From NCBI RefSeq assembly GCF_021155765.1, contig NC_060116.1:14074001-14138000 (forward strand): a stretch of 64,000 bases of DNA, in the 5' to 3' direction. The position numbers were made by a program, and so were the translations under genes. The notes beneath the pieces are model-generated. The model was not told the DNA's origin. It searched no databases and saw nothing but the letters and a program-made list of their open reading frames with translations. The first letter of the stretch is position 1. The number at the start of each line of letters is the position of its first letter. The stretch comes from Diprion similis. Lineage: Eukaryota; Arthropoda; Insecta; Hymenoptera; Diprionidae. Below, one piece after another: positions 22,795-47,826 of the stretch.

Positions 22795-25011
22795 ATGTTT
22801 ATCGTCACGAAAGAGATTGACAGCGAGAATATTAGCAAATTATGTCGCACGTGCCTCAGAGAAGACGGGGAGAAAATGGTCTGCCTATTCGTCGGGCCGG
22901 CCGGCTCGTCCCTCGCTGCAAAACTGCGATCACTGTCCTGCTTGGAGGTTATGATCCCATGCTTTTCTTTCCTATTTTGACAAGCTGCTCAAAATGCGCT
23001 CGAATTTGTAACACAATCTGTAAATCGTGATTGAAGGTATGGCAAGGTGATGGTCTACCAGAGAAAATGTGCGATCGGTGCGTTACCAGGGCTGAATCTG
23101 CGCTGCTCTATAGGGAACAATGTCGCGCTGCGGATATTGCGCTTAGACAAGCCGCCGATAAGGTATCGATCAAGAAAAATTGAGGAATTCTTCATTAACG
23201 ATGTACAAATATGTACAGCATCCAAAAGCTGAAGATGCTTGTCTCTTGAAGAATATAAGACAACGACATAGATTTTCCAAGCAAAAGCATATTTATCCAG
23301 TTTACAAAAGCCTTACAAATCCATATGCTGTATTAGCAAATTGCATAACGATCCAGCAACTATTTAACAATGTCGTTGCAACCTAATCTTCGTCATTTTC
23401 TTAATGTTTCTAATCCATAAATTTGTAACGCAGGTGTCAGGATTAACATCATACTCGACAGTAGCTGGCTGCAAGTTGTATCAACAGAACCAGGGTTACA
23501 TGCCAAATGAAACTTATCGCAAGATATTGAAATGCCTCGAATGCAGCGCAGTTTTTGTAAATTACGAAGAGTTGTGCGCGCACAATAGACTGCACGTCTC
23601 TTCAGTCCACAACACGACCCCAGTGCAGCACATGCACATAGTCGAGCCTCGGAATACATATTTCAACATGAATAATTTGAATGGTAATTTGGCTGCAGAC
23701 GATGAAAACGGTGTGTCATCTATACTGAGGTCCAACTTAATGCATGTGACACAAGTCAACGACGAGGAACCGAGTAGAGCAGCGTGCGCCTTGCATTGTT
23801 CGCTTTGTAATCACACATTCACAAACAGGACCCAATTAATCAGTCACAACTTTACTCACAGCTCCGACAACATCGATATGTCTTCTGGCGATAATACAAA
23901 CATAGAAGTTAGCGAAGATTCGAACCAAATAGCACAGAACTTGAGCTACGATAGAACGGTGAATCAAACGGCTGACAATTCGATACAGAATTTATCCTTC
24001 TCCAGGCAGGTTGTAGACAGTTCTAGGAAACTTGGGAATGTCGATTTTTCCAGCAGTGAACCTCTCGTCGATGTACAGGAGAACACAGAGCAAGTGGGGA
24101 ACTCATCGATGCGCGGATCTTTTCAATGTCTTGATGCTGCAACGATTCCACTTCCTGAAAATCTTGTATTTTCCGGTAAAGTATCTGAAAACGAGACAGT
24201 GAACGCGATGCCTAAGTATAAAAAGCACAAATGCCTTCTGTGCCCAAAGTCCTTTGCACAGAAGTCAAAATTGTTGACTCATCAGTTGTCTCACACCGGT
24301 GTGAGACCCTTCAAGTGCTCGATATGTGACAAAGCTTACACCTCCAAAAGCAAATTGAACGCCCATGTGAGATTGCATACAAAGACGAACGTGCATGTGT
24401 GCACAATATGTAGCAAACCATTTGCTTTTGCTTCTTATCTGGAGGATCATTTGAGGAGTCACAAATTTGGTACGGAAAAGGTGAACCCTGAAAAGGCAGG
24501 TCCGTTTGAGTGCAACGTCTGCAAGAAGAAGTTTCGTTTCCTCAAAAACTTCAAGGCTCACTTACGGCTGCATACGGGTGAAAATTTAGTCCAGTGCGAG
24601 TATTGCGACAAGCGTTTCAGTCAGAAGTACAACTTGAAAGTACATCTGGAATCGCACAAAGATCTGAAAGCACATAAGTGCGAATTTTGCGAAAAAAGCT
24701 TCAATCAACACGGTAACTTGGTCGAGCATTTGAGAATCCACAAAAAACTTAAGCCTTACAAGTGCGATTTATGTAGCAAATCCTTCTCGCAGTCGAGTCA
24801 CCTGAAAAATCATAAAGCATCCCACAACTCCGAAAGAGATCATTCTTGCAGATTATGCGGGAAGAAATTTAAACTGTCTAGTCATCTCAAGAGGCATTTG
24901 GACCTGCACAGTGGTAGGAAATCATTCAAGTGTGGTGAGTGCAATCAGATGTTTTCCCAAGCGTTCAGTCTAAAGAGACACTTGAAGAGACACGCCGAGA
25001 CCCATAGCTGA
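22795..25011 (+). CDS. ZAD-domain C2H2 zinc-finger protein
   Basis: Predicted sequence-specific DNA-binding transcription factor of the arthropod ZAD zinc-finger family. Three exons: 22795-22947, 23037-23162 and 23434-25011 (618 aa); both introns are GT-AG and phase 0. The N-terminal ZAD has its four metal ligands as two CxxC pairs (C17/C20 and C63/C66), split by intron 1 as is common in this family. The first ATG of the frame at 22795 gives the usual short leader before the first ligand. Two isolated C2H2 fingers follow in the middle, then a run of nine fingers at about residues 359-615 ending close to the C-terminus. ZADs generally mediate dimerisation; the DNA target is unknown. Family membership is certain, orthology is not: this family expands lineage by lineage. 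Confidence 0.93.
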
Positions 25012-26142: not shown

Positions 26143-29100
26143 TTAATAACTGAGTAAGGTGGTCGTCAGAATGTGGATTCCTTCTCTTAATTGATCCTCA
26201 GTTATCGTCAGAGGAGGTGATATTCGAATTATTTGTCCATGCGCTGGCCTGCTCAACAATCCAGCATCTCTGAGCCTCAAGCAGATGTCCCATCCGTCGG
26301 CGATCTCTGTAAATTTATTAATTAATTAGATATAATTATACAAGATTGAAAAATGTTAGACGATTCTAACTATACACAAACCGCGGAAAGCTGAGGGAAA
26401 CAATTAATCACGCGTGGTAAAAATGATAAAATTACTATAATTACGTGATTAAAATTTCGCCCGCACGCGGTGATATTATGTATTCCTAATAGTTAATCTT
26501 AATCTTCTTCCCGCGGATAAGATTGATCGACTCGGTTATTTGCGCGTACAACACACGTTAATTCTAATTCTGGTCGCGTTGGTATAGGAGGGAGGGTTCG
26601 AACCCAGTCTAACACTTGGTTCTTCCGAAAGATTTAATTTCCATCAGAGAATGAATCACGATAGATTGCATTGGCTCGAGTGCGAACATCTGCCGATTAG
26701 TCAGAGGTCCACCAATTTCGAGGGTGTGCAGGGATTTCCGCAGGATCACCGGCTGGGCTGCGTGATATCGGAGAAGAAGACGCGAAAATGCATTGCCAAC
26801 TTGAAACTGTCCTGCTCGACGAAGCGTGTATAAGCGGAAAAATTACAGGCCTCTATGGGTATAATAATAACGCACTACGCTTGTGGATGTGTATTTTCCG
26901 CGCCGCTGGAGAAAGAAGAAGCGCGTAAAAGTTTTTTTTTTTTTTTAAGGGGTGGAGGATGGTTTATTAAGTATGACGCACCCTTGTTGACCAAAACCCC
27001 AGCGAGCAGCCCTCGGCCTCGAATTTCCGTGGCGATGTCTTTGGGCAATTTTTCCAGCTCCACCCTCAAGATTTTCCCCAAATTCTTGGCGTTCTCCGCG
27101 AGCTTTTCCTCCTCTAGAATTTTCACAGCCTCCAGGGCAACGGCAGCGCCGATTGGACTTCCGGCAAAAGTACTTCCGTGCGATCCGGTCTCGAGTCCAA
27201 AGACGATCTGGAAATGGTTGAATACATCAAGGAAAAGAATTATTATCCTATCCCACAGATACGTTGATCCCCATTTTCCTAGTGTTCGTGTATAATGTTA
27301 ACAACATCCCTTCACGCGCATATAAATAAAGAAATCTTGTGCCAACTTTCTTTCGCCTTAACACGGATATAAATTCATATTCAAGAAAGTATATAAACGT
27401 AACAGTCAAACACGTATATACAGGCATGTCAGAACAAACGCATGTTTATGTTTCACCTCCTTTTACAATAACTGCCTGTAAACTGCGGTAAGGAGAAAAG
27501 AATTTAAATCACCAAATGCGACCCCAAATTGCGAATATTAGTCCCGTTCGAAAAAAGAAAAAAAAAACAGAAATATTCTTCAAATAATGACGTTTGCCGA
27601 TATTAATAGGACAAAATCGAGCACCTCCTCATCGGCCAGAACACCGGATACCGGATACATTCCACCGGACAGGGCTTTTCCCAGAATTAGAATATCCGGG
27701 CGTTGTTTCTCGTGATCGACTGCCAGTCTGTCGCCGGTCCTTCCAAGTCCTGTTTGAACCTCGTCAGCAATCCACAGAATATTGTATTTTGTGCAGAGTT
27801 CTCTGACACCGCGTAAATATCCGTCCTGCGGGATAATACAGATAACATATCTTTAAGATGTAACTTATTTATCTTTCAGCAAGATAGCGTGCAGTAAACA
27901 ATATATTTCAACAGGGATTACTTTTTCACAAACAACGCAATCTGCAAGCTCTAAAGTATAATAAATTCGTTTTTTATTTTTTTTATTTTCATAAAAATTT
28001 TCATTCCTTGACACGGCAACGACTTTATACTGAATTTTATCAGAGCCTTGTGGACGGTGAAGAAGAGGGGATATAAAATTTCGTCGGAGTACCTTGTGGG
28101 GAATTGTTTTGTATATATAGGTATAACACGTGGGAATAAATGTTTCAATGGCATTAAAAGTTGGGACTCGCGATGCAGAACGTCGTTGATAATAAGTTTG
28201 GATTGACAGCTATGAGACACCTCTATATACACACACCAGACCATAAATATAATCCCTATGGACAGGGGAGCGTAGCCGTCAAACCAATTTACAAATCGTT
28301 TGAAACACTCCCCCTTTATAATACCGGCGACCGCACGATACATTGTTCCAAAAATCTTCAGCTACACGTTACTTTCCCCAATGATGACGAACACAAATTC
28401 AACATCCTTACGCTATTTATTAGAATAATAAATCTGAGGAAATTTGGAATGGCAATTCCACTAGCAATGTGAAGTTTGCTGAATATTGTCAAAAAATTTA
28501 GCAAGCAAGATTAGCTCAGAGTAATCGGATCAAAACCACGAGATTTGAATAATTTTGAACGTTCTAATTAAAAATCCTGTTCTCAAATTGTTAATATTTT
28601 AGCTTATTATATATTTTTTTTTTTTGAATTTTTAAACGACTTTCTCACTCTTTCAAACTTTTGATTCGATATTTTTTCACCGATAAACACGAAATATTTA
28701 AATGGAAGGACAAAAGCGAGACGCAGCTCACCGTCGGAACGACGACACCAGCTTCACCTTGGATCGGCTCCATCATAAACGCACAGATATTCGGATCCGC
28801 TTCGAATTTCGACTCGAGAGCTTTCAAGTCATTGTAAGGCACAGTATCGAACAGCGGCATGTAGGGACCAAAGTCCGTGAAACAGTTCGGATCGGTAGAC
28901 GACGAAACTGCGGCTAATGATCTGCCCCAAAAGTTACCTTTTGCGAACAGTATCGACGCCCTGTTGCTGGGTACCTTCTTCGTTCTGTAAGCCCATCGTC
29001 TCGCCATCTTCAACGCCGTGTCTCCGGCCTCGACTCCTGCATTGATAAAACAATTTTTTTTCAGCAACTTGCAAGCTGCACATTTATTTTAAATTCAAAA

Positions 29101-29960
29101 TATCATTCTCGAGCGTTTCACTGACAAGGAAGGTATCCCAGGTAGATCTCTCCGATTTAATTTCGTTTGTAATATGTTATAGTAGACTAAAAACTAAGCG
29201 AAAAGTACTTTTTTTATCTGCCAATAAACACTTTAAGGGAGTGAAACCGGTCCTCCAAAATAAGGCATGTCAAGGGATGATTTGGCAGTTTTTTTTTAAA
29301 TGAGGCAAATACATTTCTCATTTCTCGTTATGACGAAACTTTTCCAGTTGGAACGGTTAAAAAATATCATGTTTTTTTGGATGAAACTGCCAAATCGTCC
29401 CTTGACATGCCTTACTTTGGAGGGTGGTTTCACCCCCTTAAAGTGTTTAATGGCTGTTAAAAAAAATACGTGTCGCTTAGATTTTAGTCTACTATAACAT
29501 ATTACAAAAGAAATTAAATCGTAGAGATCGACCCGGGATACCTTCCTTGTGAGAGTTCTTCCGAATATCCGTTCGATTCTTTACCTGTATTCATTGGGAC
29601 GAAACGGTCCCAGCCAAAAAGATTGGTCAAATACTCGGACAGGGCACCCAAGGGTTCAGTGTAGTACGCCCTGGAGGTGTGAGTGAGTTTCTCGGCCTGA
29701 TCCTGCATCGTTTTTACGAGTCGAGGGTGGCAGTGTCCTTGATTGACGGCCGCAAAACCGGCCAAGAAGTCGAGGTACTTTTTACCCTCGACATCCCAGA
29801 GGAAGGCGCCTTGTCCTCGTGTCAGAACGACCGGAAGTGGCTTAAAGTGTCGACCCCCGAACCGATCGTCCCGATCGATGATCTCCTGGGCAGTCAATAA
29901 ACGCTTGACTTCCGGCTTCTGAACGATGGAAGCTACTCTCTGCCTTATCGGAGTTTGCAT
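26143..29960 (-). CDS. ornithine aminotransferase-like paralogue with altered pocket
   Basis: PLP-dependent class III aminotransferase, 423 aa, from five exons: 29585-29960, 28732-29036, 27625-27825, 26982-27207 and 26143-26306. All introns are GT-AG and the frame closes. The overall match to ornithine delta-aminotransferase (mitochondrial, ornithine plus 2-oxoglutarate to glutamate semialdehyde plus glutamate) is strong. The PLP lysine is K277 in [10 protein letters not shown], and E220, R164 and R397 match human E235, R180 and R413. The two substrate-contacting tyrosines of human OAT (Y55, Y85) are Phe here (F39, F69), and the conserved [10 protein letters not shown] segment reads [10 protein letters not shown]. 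The N-terminus is basic but shorter than in the neighbouring copy. A splice acceptor lies 6 nt before the ATG, so a 5' UTR intron is likely. Intron 1 carries a fold-back element. Possibly a changed amino-acid preference. Confidence 0.9.
29124..29550. mobile_element. fold-back (inverted-repeat) element in intron 1 of the OAT paralogue
   Basis: Two arms of about 168 bp (29124-29291 and 29384-29550) are near-perfect reverse complements with scattered mismatches, around a loop of about 90 bp. The ends read ACAAGGAAGGTATCCC and its complement. No clear target-site duplication is visible and there is no transposase frame. The whole unit lies inside the 548-bp first coding intron. The arrangement fits a MITE or fold-back transposon; an in-place inverted duplication is the alternative. 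Confidence 0.75.
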
Positions 29961-29967
29961 TCTTTTT

Positions 29968-31170
29968 CTAGCAGAAGAGGAATGAAAAAATGATCAATCT
30001 TCCCGTGGGTGCAATTTCTCCTTTATATACAGGTATTCAACTTCGGGTGGATAAAGTTCCGGCAGAAACTTTCTTCGACACTGTGTTACTTAAGGGGAGG
30101 AAAATCACATCCAGAAAAGAGGGACGAGAATAACTTCTAAACAGCTCCGAGTAACGCGAGTTTCTGTTAATCTTTGATGAAGCTGGAGGCTGGACGCGTT
30201 AATTTATACCACCGATGTGATAGCCGGCCTATCTTTAGGATTATACGACTGCACCAACATCGCACAATATTTGCAAACGATAAGAGAGTTGCAACGTTGT
30301 GCCAACTATCTTGTTGTATTCATTTCGAGTGACGTATCTTAGATATATGTATGTACTGTGTATAAAAACAGAATTTTTTATATCTCGAATTGGGAAAACT
30401 GCAGATAATTCTATATTTATGTATTGCCCTCTAGACGATTAACGTTGTTGTCACTTGACAGGCGCCACAATTGTTGATAGCACTCGTTCTCAGTTCAGTA
30501 AATGATAGGCAGCTTGAAAACACTGGGGATAAAATGTTATGGTTGTGAGTAAACATGCGTGTGTACTGTGTAGTTACTTTGAAGTGAATTTTTACTCTCT
30601 TGTAAATGAGACTAAAGTCGACGGATAATTTGATCAGTCAAGTATTGTTTTTTCACCATCGTATTACCGATCATCATTTATGTTTCTCAATGTGATAATA
30701 ATGCACCAACTGTGAAATTTACTTTTTAAAAAATATGTATATCACAAAAAGTAAAATAATGAACCAAATCTATGGAACGTTTGCACAGTTTGTACACATG
30801 AACTTTATATAAATTTGACAATAAAATCTCGGAATCATTCTCGAGACTTTCATGCGTGATATAATATACTTTAAATACAACTATTATACAATTTGAAAAT
30901 GTACAATTTTCAATTTTTTCGAGCAAGTCTTTCAGGATTCATATTTATATCGATAATATCTTATAAGTGGAGGTGAGATATCACACGAAATATTGAGCCG
31001 TCAATGCCGACCGCAGTACAAAAATTATTATGAAAATGTAGTATTTCATTAATATAAAACCAACATACATACATATACATAATGTACCTACATTTGCATG
31101 AATTGAATAAGTTAAATATTATAATTCAGTCGTTCAGGCGAGTATATATTGTATAATAGTCGAAGTTGTA
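29968..31170. other. spacer between the two OAT genes
   Basis: About 1.2 kb of AT-rich sequence without a supportable frame. It should hold the 5' UTR or promoter of the downstream OAT paralogue and the 3' UTR of the upstream one. I could not pick a convincing upstream noncoding exon. Confidence 0.4.
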
Positions 31171-33316
31171 TTATTTCTGATATTGTTTGATCACTTTGGA
31201 TATAATACCGATCGACTCCTCGAGTTGTTCTTCGTTTATAACCAGTGGCGGAGCCAGCCTGATTATTTGACGATGTGTGGGTTTGGCGAGAAGGCCTTCA
31301 TCCCGGAATTTCAAGCAAATCTCCATCGCGTCGTATCCTGCAGGATAAAAAATAATTACATCAAATGCGTAATCGTATTATTCGAGTATGAGAATTTTTT
31401 AAGTAATCGCATCCACCGTTTCGTGGCTGACATTAAATTACCATCTGCGACAACGATCGCGTTGAGTAGCCCCTTCCCGCGGACCAGCTTGACGATTTCT
31501 TTCGGCAGCTGGCCCAGCTTCTTTCTCAGTATTTCGCCGAGCCTCTGCGCGTTTTCGGCTAGTTTTTCATCCTCCAGGACACGAAGCGCAGCCATGGCGA
31601 TCCTACAACCCAAAGGATTACCGCCGTAGGTCGATCCGTGCTCGCCGGGCTTAATAGTGAGCATTACTTGGTCGTCGGCGAGAACTCCGGACACCGGGTA
31701 AAATCCCCCGGACAAGGCTTTGCCCAAGATAACGATGTCCGGTCGCACTCCCTCGTGATCGACCGCCAATCGTTTGCCGGTCCTCGCCAGTCCGGTCTGA
31801 ACCTCGTCGGCGATCCAGAGCACGTTGTGTTTCGTGCAAAGTTCCCTGACACTCTTCAGGTAGCCTTCCTGCGAATAAACAAGAGCACGGTGATAGACCG
31901 CGGTCGCCTTATTGTTAATCCACGCTGCAAATTGGCAGTGATCAACGCAGACCGTTGAAGGATCTTCACCTGGGGAACGACGACACCAGCCTCCCCCTGG
32001 ATCGGCTCCACCATGAAAGCGCACACGTTGGGATCGGCTAGGGCCTCGTCCAGAGCCTTCAGGTCGTCGTAGGGGATGACCTGGAACCCAGGCATGTAGG
32101 GGCCGAATCCTTTGTAGCTTGTAGGGTCCGTGCTTGACGAGATCGCGCTCATGGTCCTGCCCCAAAAGTTCCCCTCGGCGAATACGATCTTCGCTGAATT
32201 CTCGGGAATTCCTTTGCTGGAGTAACCCCATTTCCGGGCCAACTTGCAGGCTGTCTCTCCACCCTCCACTCCCGTGTTCATTGGCAACCATTTGTCGTAG
32301 CTGGCAAGCAGGAGAAAAACGTGTTTATCAACCCTGTTCCTTAGTTATTACGGTCAAACTAGTAGCGCCAGCAAAGCACTGATCGAATTCTCCGATTGAT
32401 AATTGGATTCTCGAGATACCCGGGCAGATAATCAGCTCGTGTTCATAACCCGTACAATATTGCATGATAAAGAGAGATGTAGTAATAACACGTTTCGTCG
32501 TCAAGTAAGATAAGACTGACGTATAATAATCCAAACAGATATAGTTTAGAGCAGGAATCTGCAACTGATATACAATATACATATACACATACACATGTAC
32601 ATGTACATGTGATGAAAAAATTAATATAGGTAGTTACTATTTTCGCAATATTTGAAAATATTGCAATTGCTGTACAACTTGCCGATCTCACGTCACTAAG
32701 ACGAACTCCTACTAACGATAAAACATCGAGTGGGGTGATTCGATTCACCGAATATACCCACACATACCGGGACTATCCGCACATACGAATATCTAAATTA
32801 TTACCGCGAGTGCCTATCACAGTCGGGCACGTGCTATGACCATATTGAAAATTCATTATACACGCGCCGGCAAGCTGCTTATCAAACGCTTCATATTATC
32901 CGATTATCGATGTAGAAAAACGGGAAACTCTTGCGGAATCATTACCCGAACAGGCTCGTGATGTATTCCTCAAATTCACCCAACGCGTCTGAGTAAAATG
33001 CGCGAGATGTGAGGGTCAGAGTTTTCGCCTGGTCGACCATCGCCTTGTAGATCTTGGGGTGACAGTGTCCCTGATTGACGGCTGAATAGGCGCTCAGAAA
33101 ATCGTAATATCGTTTCCCTTCGACGTCCCACATGCAGACCCCTTCCGCCTTCGTAAGGGCGACGGGCAACGGGGCGTAGTTGTGGGCCCCGTGCTTGGAT
33201 TCTCGAGTGAAAACCTCCTGCGAACTAAGGCCCCTCGAATACTGCTGGAGACAATTTTTTCTCCCATTTTGCTGACTACCGAAGGTCCGCAGGGCGAATC
33301 TGGCCAGGGGTCTCAT
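31171..33316 (-). CDS. Oat: ornithine aminotransferase, mitochondrial
   Basis: Canonical ornithine delta-aminotransferase, 431 aa, from four exons: 32946-33316, 31970-32300, 31442-31868 and 31171-31337, all GT-AG and in frame. It converts ornithine and 2-oxoglutarate to glutamate-5-semialdehyde and glutamate in the mitochondrial matrix, linking arginine and proline metabolism. The first 30 residues are rich in R, S and Q with few acidic residues, fitting a targeting presequence. Diagnostic residues match the human enzyme: Y47 (human Y55), Y77 (Y85), R172 (R180), K284 (PLP lysine K292), R403 (R413), and the intact [12 protein letters not shown] segment. It is tandem to the diverged paralogue at 26.1-30.0 kb. 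Two coding introns share position and phase with it (after GVVVP and before the last exon); the first intron lies elsewhere and one intron is absent here. Confidence 0.96.
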
Positions 33317-36575: not shown

Positions 36576-37740
36576 ATGGAAGAAGACGATTACGATGCTA
36601 TTCGTCAGAAAAATATCGCCGAAAGAGACGCATTCGTAAGTAAAACGTTTCTAACCTCTAATGCTTAGGTCGATAAGACGCCGGTTATGTATCGAATGAC
36701 GAAAATCAACTTGTTTTTTCGCAGTTTGCAGAGTTCTTCCAGGACTTGAAAAAAGATACGGCTGATTTAAAGCCGCTGGACATATCGCGGCGGAGAAGTT
36801 TGGAAGATTCTGACGACGGGGTGGAGATCGATGAGCCGCCAAAGAAAAGACGTAAACCGAATGCAAAGAGGACTGAGCGTTGGGGCAAAGGGAAAGTACA
36901 ACTTGAATTTCGTAGGAAGTACAACACACGTAACAGTGCTAAGAAGAATGTCTCTGGCTCCAATTCGGACGATACAGACGAGGTGGAAGATAGTGATAAA
37001 AAGAGAAAAGGTCCGAGACTCAAGGTCCTCTTTCCTTGGGCTATACCTTTTGAACGAGAGATCAGTTTAATGAGACTAGATTTATATGGCGACGAAGATG
37101 AGGAGAATGACGACGAATCTTTAGCCTCGACTTCGGAAGATGAGGAAGAGGATGTACGGAAGAAACGAGTATTCCATAAAGTACTCAAGTCTGAGTACGA
37201 TCCGGACAGCATACCTTCTCCCGATGAAATTACTGAGGAACAGTTGTTGAATATTGCCGATAGAAGTTCGGGGAAAACTTACTGCAAAGTAAACGGGACC
37301 AGCTGCCATCAGTGCAGGCAAAAAACTTTGGACACCAAAACCGTGTGCAGATCTGGAGAATGCATAGGAGTGAGGGGTCAATTTTGCGGGCCTTGCTTGC
37401 GGGGTAGATATGGGGAAGATGCGGCTGTTGCATTGAAGGATCCTGTAAGATTCCAAACATTGTATTCAATACCCACTAGACAATCTCTACTCATTGAAAC
37501 CTTCTTAAAGCTGCCACAAAGCAAAGCACTTATCTTCCGCAAAGGTATTCTAAATTTCTTTTCTCTTTTCGTTTATTTTAGAATTGGGTTTGTCCACCTT
37601 GTCGAGGTCTGTGCAATTGCAGCATTTGTAGAACGCGAAATGGTCAAAGACCAACTGGAATTCTGGCTCCTGTTGTACAGGAAGAAGGATTTTCCTCAGT
37701 TATGGATTACTTGGAGTCTGCCAAAACTGAAGAGTTCTAG
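36576..37740 (+). CDS. Cdca7: CDCA7-like zf-4CXXC_R1 protein
   Basis: Homologue of vertebrate CDCA7/CDCA7L, a chromatin protein that recruits the HELLS/LSH remodeller and supports maintenance DNA methylation. Three exons: 36576-36635, 36725-37444 and 37582-37740 (312 aa), GT-AG, both introns phase 0. The N-terminal two thirds are acidic and basic low complexity with a short nuclear-type KKRRK stretch. The zf-4CXXC_R1 domain occupies about residues 225-300, with cysteine pairs CHQC, CGPC and CPPC and a CNCSIC cluster. Residues mutated in human ICF3 (R274, G294, R304 in CRQK, GQFCGPC and RYGE contexts) are all present. The third exon supplies the last cysteines; reading through the second intron would lose them, so the intron call is firm. 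Confidence 0.95.
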
Positions 37741-38058
37741 TCACTTGCATGACCAGTATTCATAGGAATATGTACAATATTAAGATTATAGACAAACTCT
37801 CGACTGTGAAATGTTAACTATTATTTCAATAATTTGCCATTTGCTACTTAAATCAAAGTTACTCTACGTTATAAGATCTTTATAGAATTGTTGTATTGCA
37901 GTTTAGATAAGAATGACGAAGTTCATTGCTAAATATAAGTATTTCTAGTAATTTGCAATTTTTATTTTTTCTTCATACTTGTATAAATATAAGTTATCAA
38001 TGTTTACATCTTCAAACATCTATTCAATAGAAGGATAAAATGGCATGTAAGAAATTCA

Positions 38059-39595
38059 TTACTTTATGGCAATTATTCCATAACACCTCGGGGATATCAA
38101 GGGATCAAATAGTCGCACCAGAGCAAAGTTTGAGCAAATATTACTTTCCTCTAAATAAATAATTCTGTCCAATAGAATCGCAGATTCGACAACGGATCCA
38201 AGTTGAATTCTCAAGGTTTGAAAAAGTTCCATTTTTGCCTTGAAACTTTCATGGGAACAGTACAATTCTTCAATGATATTGTCGGCAGGAATCTGAAAAG
38301 TGGCCATGTATCATATTCAGTTTCAGTGTTCTGTATGGTAAAATTTTCCAATTTAATTGCCACTGGTCGAGTGAGCAAAAAATGTCACCTCTTTCGGATC
38401 CAACCCAATTTTCTTCAATGCCCACTTGGCGTAAGTTACGAAATTGTCCAATGGCGCACCTCGTCCCACTTTAACATCCTCCATGCCTAATAAAAATTCT
38501 TAAAATTACTTGTACAGATACTTTCAAAGAAAATTATGTCTAGGAGATAATTTTTCTAACCCAGTGAATGAAGGAGGACTTGAAAAACTGCTCTGTAGTG
38601 AAGTGTTGGTGATAGGGAATGCTCATTTTGGCACGAACGCTGAACCGACTGCTGCGCAAGCATTTTGGCATTTTTGGAAACGTTCAGCTTCCCGCTGAGT
38701 GAGGTCTCGGCTAAATGGTAACAACACGTGACTAAACAGAGAGATTTTATGCAATCAGTTTTTAAAAATGCCTTTATAACCGAATGACCCAAAGAACCAC
38801 AAGTATGGAGGCCTGTTAGCGTTAAGTTTTGACTCAAACTCCAGGTAGGAAAATGTTTCTCTGCTAATTCTGCAAACTCTGTACATTCATCTATGCGCTG
38901 TGCCAAGTGATGGACCTGCAAAAAGAGTGGTTCAGTTGACATATTCTGAATACATCAATCAGTTAAAGTACAAGTCGGAGCTTGAAGTCCAAAAATCGTA
39001 CCAAATGAGAACTTTGGTTGGGTTTTTTCCTTAATATGTTTTGTCTTCTGATAGCACCTCTGTGAGCGATGTCCGATGAATCTATGGCTAAGACAGGAAT
39101 TTTGTATTTCTTCGAAATATGCTGAGAAAGATAGCCTTTTCCTGCTCCAGCGTCAATAACAGCGCTTGAATGAATTTTGGCCAAAGATGAAGTGATTCTG
39201 GCAACAATATCCACTTCATAGGATTTTTTCTCATTCATAAATTCAAGTCTACCTTTGTGATTCTTCGACTTCAAATTCTCTACATCGATTCCCCATTCCG
39301 AGAAAAGGTCTGGTATGTTTCTGAGATCGTATACCAAGTTACATTTGTCCAAAGACAGCGCATCAATAAGTTTGTAGAACTTATACAGCTCTGGTGTAGC
39401 GGATTCTTGGCCATACCAATGAGCGTCAATGATTGGATTGGAAATCAGTGTTTCTAGCTCGTTTCGCAGTGATTCTGGTAAGCACTGATCCCACAAATTT
39501 TCAGTTATGAAATCGACAAGATGAGAATCTACCAAAGATTGATATGTAGCTAAAACTTTGGCTACCTTCTCCAAGTGCTCACTAAACAAAGACAT
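38059..39595 (-). CDS. METTL25B/RRNAD1-like methyltransferase
   Basis: SAM-dependent methyltransferase-like protein of the METTL25/RRNAD1 family, 426 aa. Four exons: 39002-39595, 38561-38915, 38389-38486 and 38059-38292, GT-AG and in frame throughout. A Rossmann motif I (VIDAGAGKGYL, about residues 146-156) binds the cofactor. A later CGSLG segment and a CCYHL segment match the family's conserved CxD/CCY region, and the C-terminal LLDRIIYLEE helix matches the family. Substrate not known from sequence. The coding start follows the LTO1 stop by 45 nt on the same strand, with no room for a separate promoter between them. A TTTATT (AATAAA on this strand) at 37961-37966 is a plausible poly(A) signal; the 3' end converges with CDCA7. 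Confidence 0.92.
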
Positions 39596-39640
39596 TTTCA
39601 ACTTCAAAGTTGAAACTAGTGTTGATACTTGCAACACATG

Positions 39641-40045
39641 TTAAAAATCGAGTTTTTCTTGTTCAGGATAAGTAAATTTGATCTTTGCCAGTGAGCAGAT
39701 GCGGCTGTACTTTAGCTTTATGTCCTCAAGCAGTTTAAGTATGTCGATCGAGTCCGAGTTGTGTTTCGGGAAGTTTTCTATATCGCTTTGCAATTTATTT
39801 GCCAAGTCAATAACTTTTTCAGGAAACAAATTGGCTTTGAGGTTATACTCCAAAACCCCGCTGTAAAATCCCAGCTGCGCTGCCACCTGACTTGCTCTGT
39901 GATACCCCAAGTGGTAAGGCTCTGACATTTGAGTCCTGCCGGCTCTGTAGCCTTCCGCAAACCCAGTTTTTTCCGCTATTTCTTCGCCGAAGAGTATATC
40001 GTCAAACGCCTCATTTATATCCACGTCTTCATTCACCGCAGACAT
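39641..40045 (-). CDS. LTO1: LTO1 homologue (ORAOV1, Yae1-domain adaptor)
   Basis: Intronless 134-aa frame, close to the 137 aa of human LTO1. It carries the deca-GX3 repeat typical of Yae1/LTO1 proteins: glycines at regular spacing through GFAEGYRAG, HLGYHRA and LGFYSGV. LTO1 and YAE1 form an adaptor that delivers an Fe-S cluster to ABCE1, needed for ribosome recycling and biogenesis. The N-terminus (DINEAFDDILFGEE) also matches the family. It is immediately followed on the same strand by the METTL25B-like gene, and its start lies 420 bp head-to-head from SMARCC. Confidence 0.9.
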   Translation of the reverse strand: MSAVNEDVDINEAFDDILFGEEIAEKTGFAEGYRAGRTQMSEPYHLGYHRASQVAAQLGFYSGVLEYNLKANLFPEKVIDLANKLQSDIENFPKHNSDSIDILKLLEDIKLKYSRICSLAKIKFTYPEQEKLDF

Positions 40046-40465
40046 TTTGAAAGTTCACAGTGAACTTAGCCGCAGGCTATTCCAGCGAGGCGGGAGCATT
40101 CCAGTTATTCGAGAACAAGAGATCGCGGCCGTAGTGAGAGATCGCAGAGATGAGACGTTCGCGTGGAATACATATTCAGTGTCTGATACTTCGCTCGTGA
40201 TCAAACGGCTGTGACCGATAATTGTCTCCACTAACTGAAATACTTCGCTGTACTTTTTTTTGAGGATAGTATTGGAGATAAAATTGGAGTAAATCGTGAA
40301 TTAGAGTTAACTTGCAAGTGCATTAGCCGCACAGGGTTGTCAAGTTTCCACGCGGAGGACTTGCAGCAAACTTCGGACTCTCATGTTGTATGTGTGATGT
40401 TCGCGGGTGGCGAAGCGTTGTTTTCCTCAAGTGTCGGTGGTTTTTGAGTGAAAATAAATTGGAAA
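40046..40465. promoter_or_regulatory. probable bidirectional promoter LTO1 / SMARCC
   Basis: 420 bp separate the two divergent start codons. The half near LTO1 is relatively GC-rich. No canonical TATA box stands out. It must contain both 5' UTRs and, unless there are distant first exons, both promoters. The role is inferred from arrangement. Confidence 0.55.
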
Positions 40466-43400
40466 ATGCTCTCTCTGGGGCCTAAAAAGGACGGCGGTCC
40501 AAATGCGAAATTCTTCGAGTCTCCAGACATACTGGGCCAACTGGATGGAGTCAAACAGTGGCTTCTAAAAAATTCTAAAAAGGTGAGGCCGGCGTCTCCC
40601 AAGCGCGCCGAGTTATCTTCGCTCTAATTTTTCATCGCTAATATTTCTCTCTAATCGAATTTAACCGCTTTTTTCACAGTATGTTCAAACCGATCCACCC
40701 ACGAATAAAAGTCTCGCGACTTTGGTCGTCCAATTGTTGCAATTCCAGGAAGATAACCTCGGAAAAAATGTGTCAAAACCGCCAATGACAAGACTTCCTG
40801 TAAGTAGCATTTGCGTTCAAACATTGCTCAGTGTACAGCGTCATATTAATTTGTTTTCATAAGTCTCTATGAAATTATTTCATACTAGACCCACTTGTCT
40901 GCCAGTCAGACACAATTTTGATGTTACATAATTATCTCACTACGACGATGTGTAACCGATACATACTCAACGTTACAAACTAAGAATCATCATCATGTCT
41001 CAAACATAACTAATTCTCCCTTCCAGATGAAGTGTTTCTTAGATTTTAAGCCTGGCGGTGGTCTTTGTCAAATATTAGCTACCGCGTTCAGATTTAAACA
41101 GGAACAAGGATGGCGACGTTTCGACTTTCAAGTCGGCAAGGTAATGCATTCATATATGTGACAAAATTTCTGATATTTCGCATCTCTATCAAGATGACTT
41201 GATATTCTATTACAAAAATGCAAGAAATATCCTTGATCTGAATATTTTCAATAAACTTTGTAGTCCGGTTCTCGCATGGATCGTGCGGTGGAGATGTTAG
41301 TGGCAGCGGAACGGGCATTGGTACAAAATCGATGCATGACAATACCCTGTGTGTATGTGAGACCAGATGTAGACAAAAATACAGCGTCCAAAGTCAAGGA
41401 AGTTGTTAGACGTCATCAGGGAACAATTGCCGAAGCTGAGGCTGATGCAACACACATTGTTTATCCAGTAGCCGATCCCCTCGAGGAAGAATACGCTCGT
41501 CCTTACTTGAGGCGTGAACGCTCAGTTCTATTGCACTGGTACTACTTTCCCGACAGTTACGACTCATGGACAACATTAGATCTGCCTTGGGATTTTCCTG
41601 AAGGTCCTCTGGGGATAGGAAATACAAGTGGAAGGTATGATATTACTTACTTATAAGCTATTTCATATCTCGAGTAAGATATAATTTACTTATTCGGTAT
41701 AACCAAGGAAAAGTGATGAAATTATTGATTCCAGACCTCAGTATCGTGTGTCGGCTACTTGGGCTCTTGATCTTGACCAGTACAATGAGTGGATGAACGA
41801 AGAGGACTACGATGTTGATGAAAATGGACAGAAGAGAGTTCACAAGTACCGGCTTTCCGTCGAAGACTTGATGGCTCAACCGTCTCATCCTCCACCTTCG
41901 TCTGCCAAAAAACAGAAACGAAAACGTTCCCCCAGTCCACCTCCAAAAATTGGAAAGCGTAAAAGGTGTACATTTTGTATAAAAAAAAAATGGCAGCTAT
42001 TACAGCAATATGTTGTGCTGAAGAAAAGTGATAAATAATTGCCAATAGATTGTAATTCTCGTTTTGTTACATTAGTGTGAAAACAGATTCTTATGGATAT
42101 TGGTATTTTTCAAACAGTGGTCGCGGACCAGCAGGACTCCAAGGCTCGTCCACTTCATTGGCTACTCCGAAAAAGTCTCGAGGTGGCGTCGACGAAGAAG
42201 AAGATCTGACACAGGGGATGGAAGATCCTCCAGCTGAACCCAGGATAATAGAAGTGGTAGCAAGTCCAGCTAATCCACCTTCAGTTGGATCTGGTGGTGG
42301 ATCTACGGCTGGTAGTGGAAGTTTGTCGACAACAGGAAACAAAAAACAGGATAATGAATTACAACCGCTAAAATCTGGCAATATGGCTGATTTGGATGAG
42401 CCTATAGACGGTGTGTAATGCACAGTACCAATTAAGTTGATTGTCTTTATGAATATATCGTAAGTAAATGCTCTAGTGATGGATTCAATGATCTTAGGTG
42501 ACAAAGGAAGTACTCAAGGGGCTCAGGAGAGAGAGGAACGTGACGCAAGTAAGGAAAGAGGAGAGGGTGGGAAGGGAGATGAGCCGGAAGATAATGTTAC
42601 TGAGCAAACGCACCATATTGTTGTACCTAGCTACTCAGCTTGGTTTGATTACAACTCAATCCATACGATTGAAAAACGTGCTTTGTCCGAATTTTTTAAC
42701 GGAAAAAATAAATCGAAAACACCCGAGATCTACCTTGCCTATCGCAATTTTATGATCGATACTTACCGACTAAATCCAACGGAATATATCACCTCTACTG
42801 CCTGCAGGTACGGTCAAAACTTTTACCCCTTCAAAATCCGTTTCGACCAAGCTCTTGTATACCAGAATATCATTTTAGTACTAACCACTTCGTATGACTT
42901 GGATGATGCCAAAAAATCAATATAACGGCATAATTGTTTTCAGACGTAATTTAGCAGGAGACGTGTGTGCCATTATGCGTGTTCATGCGTTTCTGGAGCA
43001 GTGGGGTCTCATTAATTACCAAGTTGACGCAGAATCTAGACCAACCCCAATGGGTCCACCACCTACATCTCACTTCCACGTTCTCTCAGACACTCCATCT
43101 GGACTGGCGCCTGTTAATCCGAATCCTCCCAAGACTCCGCAGCCTTCCAGCGCTGCAAAATCCCTGTTGGATTTGGAAAAGAAACCTATTGTCGTAGGCC
43201 TGGGACCAGAAGAAAAGAGCGGACTTGGAGTTATGACTAACTTTGGTCTGAAGGTGGATCAGTATTCCAGAAAGCCTGCGGTTTTAAAAAGCAAACAAGC
43301 TGCTGGTGCCACTCGCGATTGGACCGAGCAGGAAACGCTATTGTTATTAGAAGGGTTGGAGCTCCATAAAGATGACTGGAACAAAGTTTGCGAACATGTT

Positions 43401-44710
43401 GGATCTCGCACTCAAGATGAGTGCATACTTCACTTCTTACGGCTACCTATCGAAGATCCGTACCTCGAAGAAGGAGGCCCTGAAGGTCTGGGACCGCTTG
43501 CCTATCAGCCTGTTCCTTTTTCAAAGGCTGGTAACCCGGTCATGAGCACGGTCGCTTTCTTAGCTTCGGTTGTGGATCCAAGAGTGGCTGCTAGTGCTGC
43601 TAAAGCCGCTATGGAAGAATTTGCAGCTATCAAAGATCAAGTGCCTGCTGCCCTACTCGATCAGCATCTTCGTAATGTTCAAGCAAGTGCTAATCCAGAT
43701 GGTGAGTTTTTGGGAAAACAGCTTGACAGGACTGGTATTGAGTACAAAAATGATTTTTATCTATTTTAAAAATAATCACTCATCTGTATATTTAGGCAAA
43801 TTTGATCCATCGGCAGGACTCGCGCAGTCCGGTATTGCAGGAACTGGACCCCCAGAACCTCCCGAAGATCCTGCTGTCTCAGCTAATAGTGCAACTTCCT
43901 CATCTGCAAGTGTTACTTCTCCTCATGCTTCGACTGCGGAAAGTAAAAAGGAGGAGCTTCAGGATATTAAAGTCAAGGAGGGAGTGGATGCTACGCAGGT
44001 GCCACCCCAATCTATGAAAAAGGAAGAGTCAGTGGAGAGTGAACGTGACCAGCCTGAAAAAATAGAAGTCGATCCAAAGGAGAATGATGATGAAGCTAAG
44101 TCTAAAGGAGACCCTGAAGAAATTGAAGCTAAAGAAAAGAGAGATAAGGTAATTTTGAGTGCATTGAGCACTCTATTCTATTAATGGCTAAGATTATGTT
44201 AGTCTGTCATGTGAACAAGGTTTAAAGCTATTTTTAATTCCTTTGACGCAGGTGGTTAGAGATGCGCAACTACAATCTGCTGCGGCGGCCGCGTTAGCAG
44301 CTGCAGCTGTCAAAGCAAAACACTTAGCAGCGGTAGAGGAAAGAAAAATCAAATCATTAGTGGCACTGCTGGTTGAAACTCAGATGAAAAAACTTGAAAT
44401 AAAATTGCGGCATTTCGAAGAGCTCGAAACAACAATGGAACGGGAACGAGAGGGCCTGGAGTATCAGCGCCAGCAATTAATTACAGAACGGCAGCAATTT
44501 CACTTGGAACAATTAAAAGCAGCGGAATTTCGTGCGCGACAGCAAGCACACCAGCGGCTGGCTCAGGAACAACAGCAACAACAGCAGAGTCAGCATCCAC
44601 CATGGCAAGCATCCAATACTCAGCAACAACAGCAACAGCAACAACAGCCACCTAGTCCGCAGCCACAGGTGGCGCAACCGCCTCCGCACACCCCACCTCA
44701 ACAAGCGTAA
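40466..44710 (+). CDS. mor: SWI/SNF (BAP) core subunit SMARCC, moira homologue
   Basis: Scaffold subunit of SWI/SNF chromatin remodellers, 1041 aa. Ten exons: 40466-40582, 40680-40799, 41027-41140, 41264-41634, 41735-41965, 42118-42410, 42498-42807, 42944-43701, 43796-44148 and 44252-44710; all GT-AG and the frame closes. Domains in order: N-terminal SMARCC module (about residues 1-300, ends with a [10 protein letters not shown] basic stretch), SWIRM (about 455-545), SANT (about 642-690, starting [14 protein letters not shown]), an acidic lysine/glutamate-rich linker, then an alanine-rich stretch and long charged coiled coil (about 890-990). The C-terminal tail is rich in glutamine and proline with two polyglutamine runs. 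Length and order match insect Moira and vertebrate BAF155/170. Nuclear. Confidence 0.97.
44585..44646 (+). repeat. coding CAA/CAG (polyglutamine) runs in SMARCC
   Basis: Two mixed CAA/CAG tracts in the last exon (about 44568-44590 and 44620-44648) encode Gln runs separated by a short non-repetitive segment. Mixed codons suggest selection or age rather than recent pure-repeat expansion. Confidence 0.7.
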
Positions 44711-45819: not shown

Positions 45820-47826
45820 TCATAGAGCCTGGTTATCTATTAGCTCCAATACTAGATCAGTCATCAGACGTGCACACTCCACACCTCCTGGTGGAGGCCC
45901 TTGTGCTCCTTCCACTTTTTCACTTTGTTCTTCATCCTCGTATAAATCTGGAGCTTCGTCGCTGGCACAAGTACTTATTGGAAGCATATCCAATGCTATA
46001 CCCAACCCAAAGCGTCCACATCTCCGCAGCTCTTCAGTTAAACTATTATAAATTTCGATATAAACATTAATATTTTCTAATACTTGTATATGTATATAAC
46101 TTAACATTATAACGTTTTAGGTATGTATCTGTTAACTTGGCTTTTGGTGTCATGCAACAACCCATACATAGATATTCATTTGTGAGGATATCTGCAGCTG
46201 TTGTCAAATGCTGTGACCTGTTTATATCGCACTGTAAATCACGGCGCAGAGTGCTTTGATTTCGAGTTAGAAATCACCCTACATTTAAATGTCCTTTTCA
46301 CTTACATGTCCCACATAATTTCAGGATCTCTTGAAGCCTCTTGAACATTCAGCATCTTGAGAGCAAAAATTAAGTTATGGTGGTAATGACGCAAAAGTGA
46401 TGTCATATGGGCATGTCTGACTTCTCCGCTGGTGCAGCAATAGAGAAGTGTTGCCAAATCAAGGGCTAATGAACCAACCCGAGACAGTTGGAAATCAACA
46501 AAGCATACAACCTGCTCAAAGGTAAGTAGAACAAATCAAATCTTGAGTTATAATTATTATATATAAATATTGAGTTATATATATATATATGCGACTTAAA
46601 AGAGTTAGAAGTTTTACATTGTGTTGGAAAATCCATAATTATCATCACATCAATTACATGTATTGATGAACAAACAAAACTGAAGATAATTTTACAAGAC
46701 ATCTCAGTGTGCACAAACCTTTGTGTCAGATTCTACTTCTTTACGAAACAAGATATTGTTGGTCCAACAATCACCGTGACAAAAAACTGTTAGTGGCCCT
46801 TCAGCAGCAGCCAGATTGCACATTGTATGAAAGAAAGTTTCTTCTTGTAAAAACAGTTTCATTCTACGCATTACATCTTCCCTTTTCTCATGTGACATGG
46901 GGGGTAGAGCTTCAGATACCATTGCAATTGCATTACTGGCAGCGACTCTGTAGTACTGCCTATACCAATCTGCGTTCTCTTCGCAGAACATTGCTTCCGC
47001 TATACCTTTTCCTCCTTTTCTGCTCAACTCTTGAAACTCTTCTGGCCTTCGAATTAAAACCATTATCAATATTATTACTGCTTTTGACTTGGCAAATTTA
47101 CTCTGGATGGGACAGTGGTGGTTGACTTTAAATGTTGACTAAGATTTTTATTACTCTATTCAGTTGAAACTTGCCTTGCTTCTTTTAATGCAAGGCTAAG
47201 CGCATGAAAGCCTGCTAAAGCTGCTAGCGTTTGCCGCAGCTGCTCAACTTGGAGACCAGCCCTTCTATCGCCCATCCGAAACCCCAGCTCTCTTAAATCT
47301 TCCATCGCGATAAGATCTTCGCGTGCATCATATATTTTGGCCACTCCATCGAATACGTGATGCCCCGATGTCTGCAGAACATTTAGAGCTGGCCACACTT
47401 TAGTATAAAATGCTACCTCATTCCTGAACAGAGTTTCACTTTTGAAGGCCTCGCGTCGTTCCCGTGAGTCTGGCAATACCTTAATATTCGTAAAGATATG
47501 AGGAAAATTTAATTTCGAATAACCAACCTTTTGGCGCAGTTCATTAGGACAATAATTGAAGTGAGAATCATAGTACTTTATAAAAATTAATTCTTTGAAA
47601 CTACCTTGTATATGATAGTTCGTTCCCATTTCACCCTTTCACCACCGTTCTTTTGTTGTTTTAAACCAATAACACGCAGGCGATAAAGCATTGACGTGTA
47701 ATTATCGCCCCTTCCTGAACCAGGTTCTTCTTCCAAGCTAATAATTTCAACTTCTGGTTCATCTTTAGCAATAATTTCCTTAATTGAATCTAAGGTCAGG
47801 CGCACACTTTCGTTTTTACACTCCAT
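45820..47826 (-). CDS. CHK kinase-like (EcKinase) protein
   Basis: Member of the insect ecdysteroid-kinase-like/CHK family of small-molecule kinases, 427 aa. Five exons: 47605-47826, 47175-47479, 46719-47046, 46306-46511 and 45820-46042. A GxGRGDNYTSMLYR glycine-rich segment near residue 37 is the nucleotide loop. IIYK is followed across the intron by VLPDS, as in the family. The catalytic loop is FCHGDCWTNN (D268) and the metal-binding motif is VDFQ (D291). Intron 2 is best explained as GC-AG (AG|GCAAGT), since only that donor joins the frame. The last junction (at 46042) was chosen among weak acceptors because it restores family-like sequence. Members phosphorylate ecdysteroids or xenobiotic conjugates; the substrate here is unknown. 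Confidence 0.88.

Follow-up and report, generated by a model that had tools for sequence, protein, structure and literature searches.

A tandem ornithine aminotransferase paralogue of Diprion similis with phenylalanine in place of both substrate-site tyrosines

When a second copy of a well-known enzyme lies beside the canonical one and has lost two residues of the substrate pocket, is it a working enzyme, and if so, for which substrate? The question is raised by a window of 64,000 nucleotides of the hymenopteran Diprion similis (assembly GCF_021155765.1, contig NC_060116.1, positions 14,074,001 to 14,138,000 of the forward strand; positions below are those of the window), which carries a head-to-tail pair of genes of the ornithine aminotransferase (OAT) family on its minus strand. 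In our gene models both are complete, copy A encoding 431 amino acids and copy B 423. We compared the two with human OAT, with bacterial OATs and with other class III aminotransferases, and we see about an even chance that copy B is a functional tandem paralogue of long standing that would have kept the cofactor chemistry while its substrate side was rebuilt, and hence probably has a shifted amino donor.

The pair runs from 26143, the final base of the copy B stop codon, to 33316, the initial base of the copy A ATG, and the bounds and completeness that an earlier note had claimed for it were confirmed (Table 1). Copy A has four exons and copy B five, all 7 of the 7 introns are GT-AG, and neither frame holds an internal stop. 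The two proteins are 57% identical in the family alignment (239/420) and 59% by BLAST (240/410). One intron is exactly common to the two genes (phase 0, after ...GVVVP[QT]) and a phase-1 intron lies at an almost identical place; the first introns are unlike, following LF in copy A and MNT in copy B, and copy B has an extra intron after ADEE.

Alignment to human OAT places F39 of copy B opposite Tyr55 and F69 opposite Tyr85, with Tyr at both positions in copy A, just as the same note had read them. According to the available text of a review of the human enzyme (PMC13327489), the substrate site is bounded by Tyr55, Tyr85, Arg180, Glu235 and Arg413; of these, Tyr55 contacts ornithine at its alpha-amino group and Arg180 at its alpha-carboxylate. 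Catalytic efficiency is given there as about 1/1000 for Y85I and below 1/100 for Y55H, Y55A and Y55G, and the choice between ornithine and gamma-aminobutyric acid (GABA) as set by Tyr or Ile at residue 85. The view that the pocket tyrosines determine ornithine/GABA selectivity is thus shared by this literature, for Y85I and Y55A/G/H.

Tyr occupies both positions in every one of 80 bacterial OATs, the best 80 of at least 574 confirmed relatives obtained when bacterial and archaeal genomes were scanned with copy B. Since the query was copy B itself, the choice of this set was, if anything, biased toward copy-B-like residues. The set was enlarged to 120 rows by 11 plasmid OATs (from Deinococcota, Synergistota, Cyanobacteriota, Bacillota, Actinomycetota and Pseudomonadota) and by 29 further loci, taken from a search across phyla in which 46 of 144 genomes gave a match over the cut-off. 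Tyr55 is present in 120/120 of these rows and Tyr85 in 119/120, the rows being related rather than independent (rows L147 and L063 represent a single gene). Because copy B has lost both of the substrate-site tyrosines that mark the ornithine-specific enzyme (EC 2.6.1.13), we file it as an OAT-family paralogue and not under that number.

The remainder of the active site is retained. Among twelve active-site residues named in the available text of the review (PMC13327489), ten are kept in copy B: human G142, F177, R180, E235, D263, Q266, K292, S321, T322 and R413. R164, E220, K277 and R397 of copy B correspond to human R180, E235, K292 and R413, so the lysine that binds pyridoxal 5'-phosphate (PLP) and the three charged residues that had been listed as kept are all present. 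Columns were counted as conserved if human OAT and no fewer than 79 of the 80 bacterial OATs had the same residue; of these 122 columns, copy B breaks 22 and copy A 2. If 22 of 122 columns were hit randomly, the chance that exactly Tyr55 and Tyr85 would change among the twelve named residues is 0.005, by a test chosen post hoc.

The breaks in copy B are unevenly spread, with 0/49 within human residues 148-315 versus 22/73 outside (Fisher p 4e-6). As this boundary was drawn after the data were seen, a boundary-free test was added, in which an unchanged run of at least 49 columns arose in 9 of 200,000 shuffles of the 22 hits. Under a stricter definition over the 120 bacterial rows (83 columns), copy A breaks none and copy B 11 (54, 55, 85, 86, 115, 147, 316, 324, 326, 405 and 407), nine of them within four short stretches (54-55, 85-86, 316-326 and 405-407). 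At the 122 conserved columns, the changes of copy B avoid the catalytic, large-domain core. G324 is found in 120/120 bacterial rows and is Ala in copy B; N326 is found in 118 (with F in 1 and S in 1) and is Ser in copy B. At 41 missense sites taken from the human variant table, as available in PMC13327489, copy B differs from human OAT at 9 and copy A at 3, and three of the nine (54, 55 and 326) belong to the 22 breaks.

We next consider whether copy B is under selection and how old the duplication may be. Between the copies, the proportions of nonsynonymous (pN) and synonymous (pS) differences are 0.264 and 0.778, and 61% of fourfold sites differ (115 sites); these codon comparisons omit the first 21 codons of copy B. 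In a codon model of the pair, omega = 1 was rejected (2ΔlnL ~260), where omega is an average over both copies, not a value for the copy B branch alone, and synonymous sites are saturated. On the model grid dS was beyond the measurable range: dS 6 and dS 10 lay 6.3 and 2.3 units of 2ΔlnL below the best point, only dS 10 and 20 fell within 3.84 of it, and omega was 0.03 or less from dS 10. At columns where copy A matches human OAT, copy B has changed 22/121 (18%) in the most conserved class and 8/16 (50%) in the most variable one (chi-square p 0.0035); at columns where copy B matches human OAT, copy A has changed 1/100 and 12/20, respectively. Copy B is constrained, although clearly either less than copy A or in a different way. 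With synonymous change between the copies saturated and a pair omega of 1 rejected, it is neither recent nor visibly decaying. Nor does it look like a pseudogene: the frame is intact, the splice sites are kept and the pair omega is not near 1. The earlier description of an intact rather than decaying duplicate is borne out by these points together with the lower rate of change at conserved columns, and copy B is very probably an intact gene under selection.

On the OAT equivalog model TIGR01885 (cut-off 378.4 bits) copy A scores 678.1 and copy B 605.6 bits, and among the best 25 of 69 matched models no other reached its cut-off for either copy. The nearest solved structures for both are human OAT, to which copy A is 70.0% and copy B 57.3% identical over the aligned part; mean identity to the 80 bacterial OATs is 66.3% for human OAT, 64.3% for copy A and 53.3% for copy B. 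In a tree that took in 28 hand-picked members of the 80, a starred branch (97/98) separates the two copies and human OAT from the bacterial OATs. Within the first group the union of copies A and B is weak (76/41): copy A with human OAT was not rejected (approximately unbiased test, p-AU 0.476), copy B with human OAT was not formally rejected (p-AU 0.079), and polarised site patterns give a near tie (A+B 7, A+human 6, B+human 2). The end branches are 1.35 for copy B, 0.30 for copy A and 0.40 for human OAT. From the tandem position and the one exactly common intron we infer that a duplication within the insect line is favoured. When the 269-Mb genome was searched with PF00202, 19 exon matches came up, grouped as at least five genes, namely A, B and three others on contigs C9, C4 and C1. 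The three others, named from their motifs, are presumably GABA aminotransferase, AGXT2-like and ETNPPL-like.

Viral contigs scanned with copy B yielded one stretch that matched a pattern and no relative. Two further candidates were set aside. A drift of copy B toward ArgD/AstC, suggested by its gain in bits on PRK05093 (285.6 to 304.5) and TIGR03246 (272.7 to 283.3), was matched by an equal tendency for copy A and human residues in a control. Here, 21 non-OAT class III proteins out of 30 fetched loci were used (of the rest, 8 were OATs and L117 scored too low), and the mean frequency of derived residues in these 21 proteins was 0.133 for copy B, 0.131 for copy A and 0.118 for human OAT, each above its own shuffles. 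As to a possible gene conversion in exon 3, where amino-acid identity is 81%, the fourfold-site difference shows no clear drop (0.50, n=28, versus 0.61 overall, n=115).

What might copy B do? Judged from position-specific conservation alone, a donor shift would be its most likely function, and a changed donor preference as such stands, in our estimate, evenly balanced. The enzyme is expected to perform the PLP ping-pong reaction still, with Arg180 docking the substrate alpha-carboxylate and 2-oxoglutarate being used via the Glu235/Arg413 switch; since these three features would be kept, copy B should be a 2-oxoglutarate-dependent omega-aminotransferase. Lost would be the contact of the Tyr55 hydroxyl near the ornithine alpha-amino group, the Tyr85 hydroxyl, and with them part of the ornithine-selecting gate. 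Copy B would then bind L-ornithine less well and make relatively better use of omega-amino acids in which the alpha-amino group is absent or blocked, candidate donors being 5-aminovalerate, GABA, lysine and N-acylated ornithine. As Phe retains most of the bulk of Tyr, a simple conversion to a GABA aminotransferase is not expected. If the duplication is as old as the saturated synonymous sites suggest, orthologues are expected across Hymenoptera or beyond. A bolder version, which we offer tentatively and think rather unlikely, is that copy B represents an old arthropod OAT subfamily, a second omega-aminotransferase with both ornithine-sensing tyrosines changed to Phe and the surrounding stretches rebuilt, dedicated to another omega-amino acid.

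Several observations weigh against a shifted donor. The replacement of Tyr by Phe is mild, for the ring and most of the bulk are retained and the pocket is not opened as by Ile, and Tyr-to-Phe at 55 or 85 is not among the human variants tabulated in the available text of PMC13327489. Random hits would by themselves spare all ten of the other named residues with a probability of 0.12. With conserved columns broken at 22/122 in copy B versus 2/122 in copy A, part of the change could reflect looser constraint, and the pair omega, as an average, does not separate the copy B branch. Several of the 22 breaks (378, 379 and 404) lie at columns whose conservation does not extend to the wider bacterial set, and at columns where copy A matches human OAT copy B changed about as often in the core (32/132) as outside it (53/155; p 0.07). 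The ten-residue motif change that had been claimed for copy B holds in part: G324A and N326S are unusual, whereas Phe at human 323 is ordinary (51/80 bacterial OATs) and Ile at 328 is not rare (10/80). With GABA aminotransferase-, AGXT2- and ETNPPL-like genes apparently present, copy B fills no obvious gap, and its derived residues give no pointer to another class III activity.

The two genes also differ outside these columns. On the minus strand upstream of copy B (29989..30029), a TATA match, TATATAAA, starts from 30029, 69 bases before the ATG, and an initiator (Inr)-like TCATT from 29993, 33 bases before it; both are consensus matches only. No ATG lies between these elements and the start at 29960. 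The 150 bases before the copy A ATG hold only a TATA-like match, 18 bases upstream, and no Inr match. The first acidic residue is at 17 in copy B and 34 in copy A, and the largest N-terminal amphipathic moment is 0.36 in copy B and 0.48 in copy A. The GC content of third codon positions (GC3) is 0.571 in copy B and 0.671 in copy A. Introns of 104 (31338-31441) and 101 (31869-31969) nucleotides in copy A have counterparts of 675 (26307-26981) and 906 (27826-28731) in copy B. Intron 1 of copy B (29121-29553) holds a foldback with inverted arms of 128 nucleotides, 90% complementary, and inner arms of 40 nucleotides, 95% complementary. This foldback is a genome repeat: from 337 candidates, of which 40 were scored, 80 strand-wise matches were counted, itself included, which correspond to about 40 places, and the other matches have 71-84% identity to it. 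It looks like a non-coding inverted-repeat transposon.

The alternative closest to the canonical enzyme is that copy B is a second OAT isozyme of lower efficiency or of different regulation (by tissue, stage or compartment), its donor unchanged and both Phe residues tolerated. Arg180, Glu235 and Arg413 are unchanged, no replacement of Tyr is milder than Phe, and 605.6 bits on the OAT model is compatible with such a role; the TATA and Inr-like matches, unlike those of copy A, suggest that regulation may differ, and the N-termini, with their different first acidic residue and amphipathic moment, that targeting may differ too. Yet both tyrosines are kept in 119/120 bacterial rows and in human OAT, and the clustering of 9/11 of the strictest breaks in four short stretches goes beyond what an unchanged isozyme would appear to need, so that we regard this explanation as somewhat unlikely. 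We find it quite improbable that copy B is a paralogue of weak or no catalytic activity that has been kept as a pseudoenzyme or subunit partner with a non-catalytic or heteromeric role. The yeast ALT1/ALT2 pair is reportedly a case of a retained inactive aminotransferase paralogue. As each OAT active site is formed at the subunit interface by residues of both subunits (PMC13327489, available text), an A/B heterodimer is conceivable. Against this, the core at 148-315 has no change in 49 conserved columns; the other ten named cofactor and charge residues are also kept, a weak point in view of its probability by chance.

Two further readings fare worse. A duplicate under relaxed selection and heading for loss would account for the long end branch (1.35 versus 0.30 and 0.40), the 22 broken conserved columns, the lower GC3 and the foldback repeat within intron 1. 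It is very improbable all the same, as 423 codons have come through synonymous saturation without a stop, frameshift or broken splice site, and changes climb from the most conserved to the most variable columns (18% to 50%, p 0.0035). That copy B is no OAT paralogue at all but a member of another, long-established aminotransferase family is, within the models and proteins compared here, scarcely credible. It does score on other class III models, with 352.5 bits on TIGR00707, 220.2 on TIGR00700 and 283.3 on TIGR03246, but these values are below the respective cut-offs (410.05, 506.65 and 609.95) and copy A does about equally well on the first two (355.2 and 219.1). Moreover, copy B groups with copy A and human OAT apart from the 28 bacterial OATs, and the intron exactly common to the two copies speaks for their kinship. 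We retain, at the strength given above, the reading of copy B as a paralogue with a probably shifted donor.

The finding is of a diverged paralogue of a known enzyme. OAT links the metabolism of arginine, proline and glutamate, and a natural paralogue under selection that changes both tyrosines but keeps the cofactor machinery offers a ready-made test of the role of those hydroxyls. Copy B could reveal an unassigned insect transaminase, and it would become notable once a new donor had been demonstrated and orthologues had been found across insects. It also illustrates that calling every TIGR01885 match an ornithine aminotransferase can mislead. Literature searches on OAT in insects, including Hymenoptera, honey bee and sawfly, and on its duplication brought up no such paralogue among the papers listed.

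Several other genes flank the pair (Table 1). From their domains, we take the zf-4CXXC_R1 frame to be CDCA7 and the Methyltransf_32 frames to be METTL25-like; the frame next to them is presumably LTO1-like. The order from 23368 to 43769 (zinc finger, OAT pair, CDCA7-like, METTL25-like, LTO1-like) matches a published hymenopteran cluster, as far as the available text describes it (PMC10538959). There, LTO1, MET25, OAT and ZN808 are said to cluster in every hymenopteran analysed but not beyond the order. CDCA7 separates MET25 from OAT in Orussus, two bees and Polistes, but not in those parasitoid wasps that were examined. By this order alone, the host would very probably be a hymenopteran from outside those parasitoid groups. 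The available text of that account (PMC10538959) makes no mention of a further OAT copy on the zinc-finger side of OAT within the cluster. As for the assembly, TTAGG-type arrays were seen at 6/8 contig ends inspected (contigs C12, C4, C1 and C9; present in L120 and L122-L126, none in L119 or L121; in L122, 5000/6000 bases are N), so several contigs reach telomeres.

Table 1. Coding exons of the OAT-family pair and neighbouring genes in the window (residue numbers of equivalents are those of human OAT)
Feature	Position	Strand	Remarks
Copy A exon 1	32946..33316	-	ATG, N-terminal leader, Tyr55 and Tyr85 equivalents; gene model, alignment
Copy A exon 2	31970..32300	-	Arg180 and Glu235 equivalents; gene model, alignment
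Copy A exon 3	31442..31868	-	PLP lysine; strongest PF00202 match of the genome among the matches listed
Copy A exon 4	31171..31337	-	Arg413 equivalent, ends at stop codon; gene model, alignment
Copy B exon 1	29585..29960	-	ATG at 29960; F39 (Tyr55), F69 (Tyr85); gene model, alignment
Copy B exon 2	28732..29036	-	R164 = Arg180, E220 = Glu235; gene model, alignment
Copy B exon 3	27625..27825	-	Asp263 and Gln266 equivalents, K277 = PLP lysine 292; gene model, alignment
Copy B exon 4	26982..27207	-	G324A, N326S (human numbering); gene model, alignment
Copy B exon 5	26143..26306	-	R397 = Arg413; human 404-407 AKPT to SRPA; ends at stop codon
C2H2 zinc-finger gene	23368-25011	+	adjoins copy B side
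zf-4CXXC_R1 frame	36677-37765	+	beyond copy A
Two Methyltransf_32 frames	38556-39640	-	
LTO1-like frame (presumed)	39641-40054	-	no Pfam match
SWIRM/Myb frames	41264-43769	+	
Two EcKL frames (ecdysteroid kinase-like, PF02958)	46704-47638	-	

How does copy B compare with enzymes already known? With human OAT and bacterial RocD (EC 2.6.1.13; TIGR01885) it has in common the family, the length, the PLP lysine, the cofactor residues, Arg180, Glu235 and Arg413; it differs from them in Phe at 55 and 85 and, at near-invariant columns, in N54H, S86A, F115Y, E147D, P316T, G324A, N326S, K405R and T407A. The OAT of Toxoplasma gondii reportedly has Val at the Tyr85 position and acts on N-acetylornithine and GABA; it is of another lineage, and there Val would open the pocket whereas Phe in copy B does not. 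GABA aminotransferase, ArgD and AstC have the class III fold and chemistry of copy B, but copy B remains under the cut-offs of TIGR00700, TIGR00707 and TIGR03246, and with respect to GABA aminotransferase it carries Phe, not isoleucine, at 85 and scores 220.2 bits against 506.65. The human variants Y85I, Y55A/G and Y55H concern the very two positions altered in copy B, on which ornithine binding and the choice between ornithine and GABA depend (PMC13327489, available text), but each of them replaces a single tyrosine, by Ile, Ala, Gly or His, while copy B has Phe at both together with further changes. The lone bacterial exception at Tyr85, L161 (G082:C410:3496-4680), scores 600 bits on TIGR01885, and its genome has a second match over the cut-off (G082:C179). 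L161 has Ile at this position (DFLSGICAVGQ), and is thus a natural counterpart of the human Y85I mutant. Tyr85 has been naturally replaced in both L161 and copy B, by Ile with Tyr55 kept in the former and by Phe in the latter.

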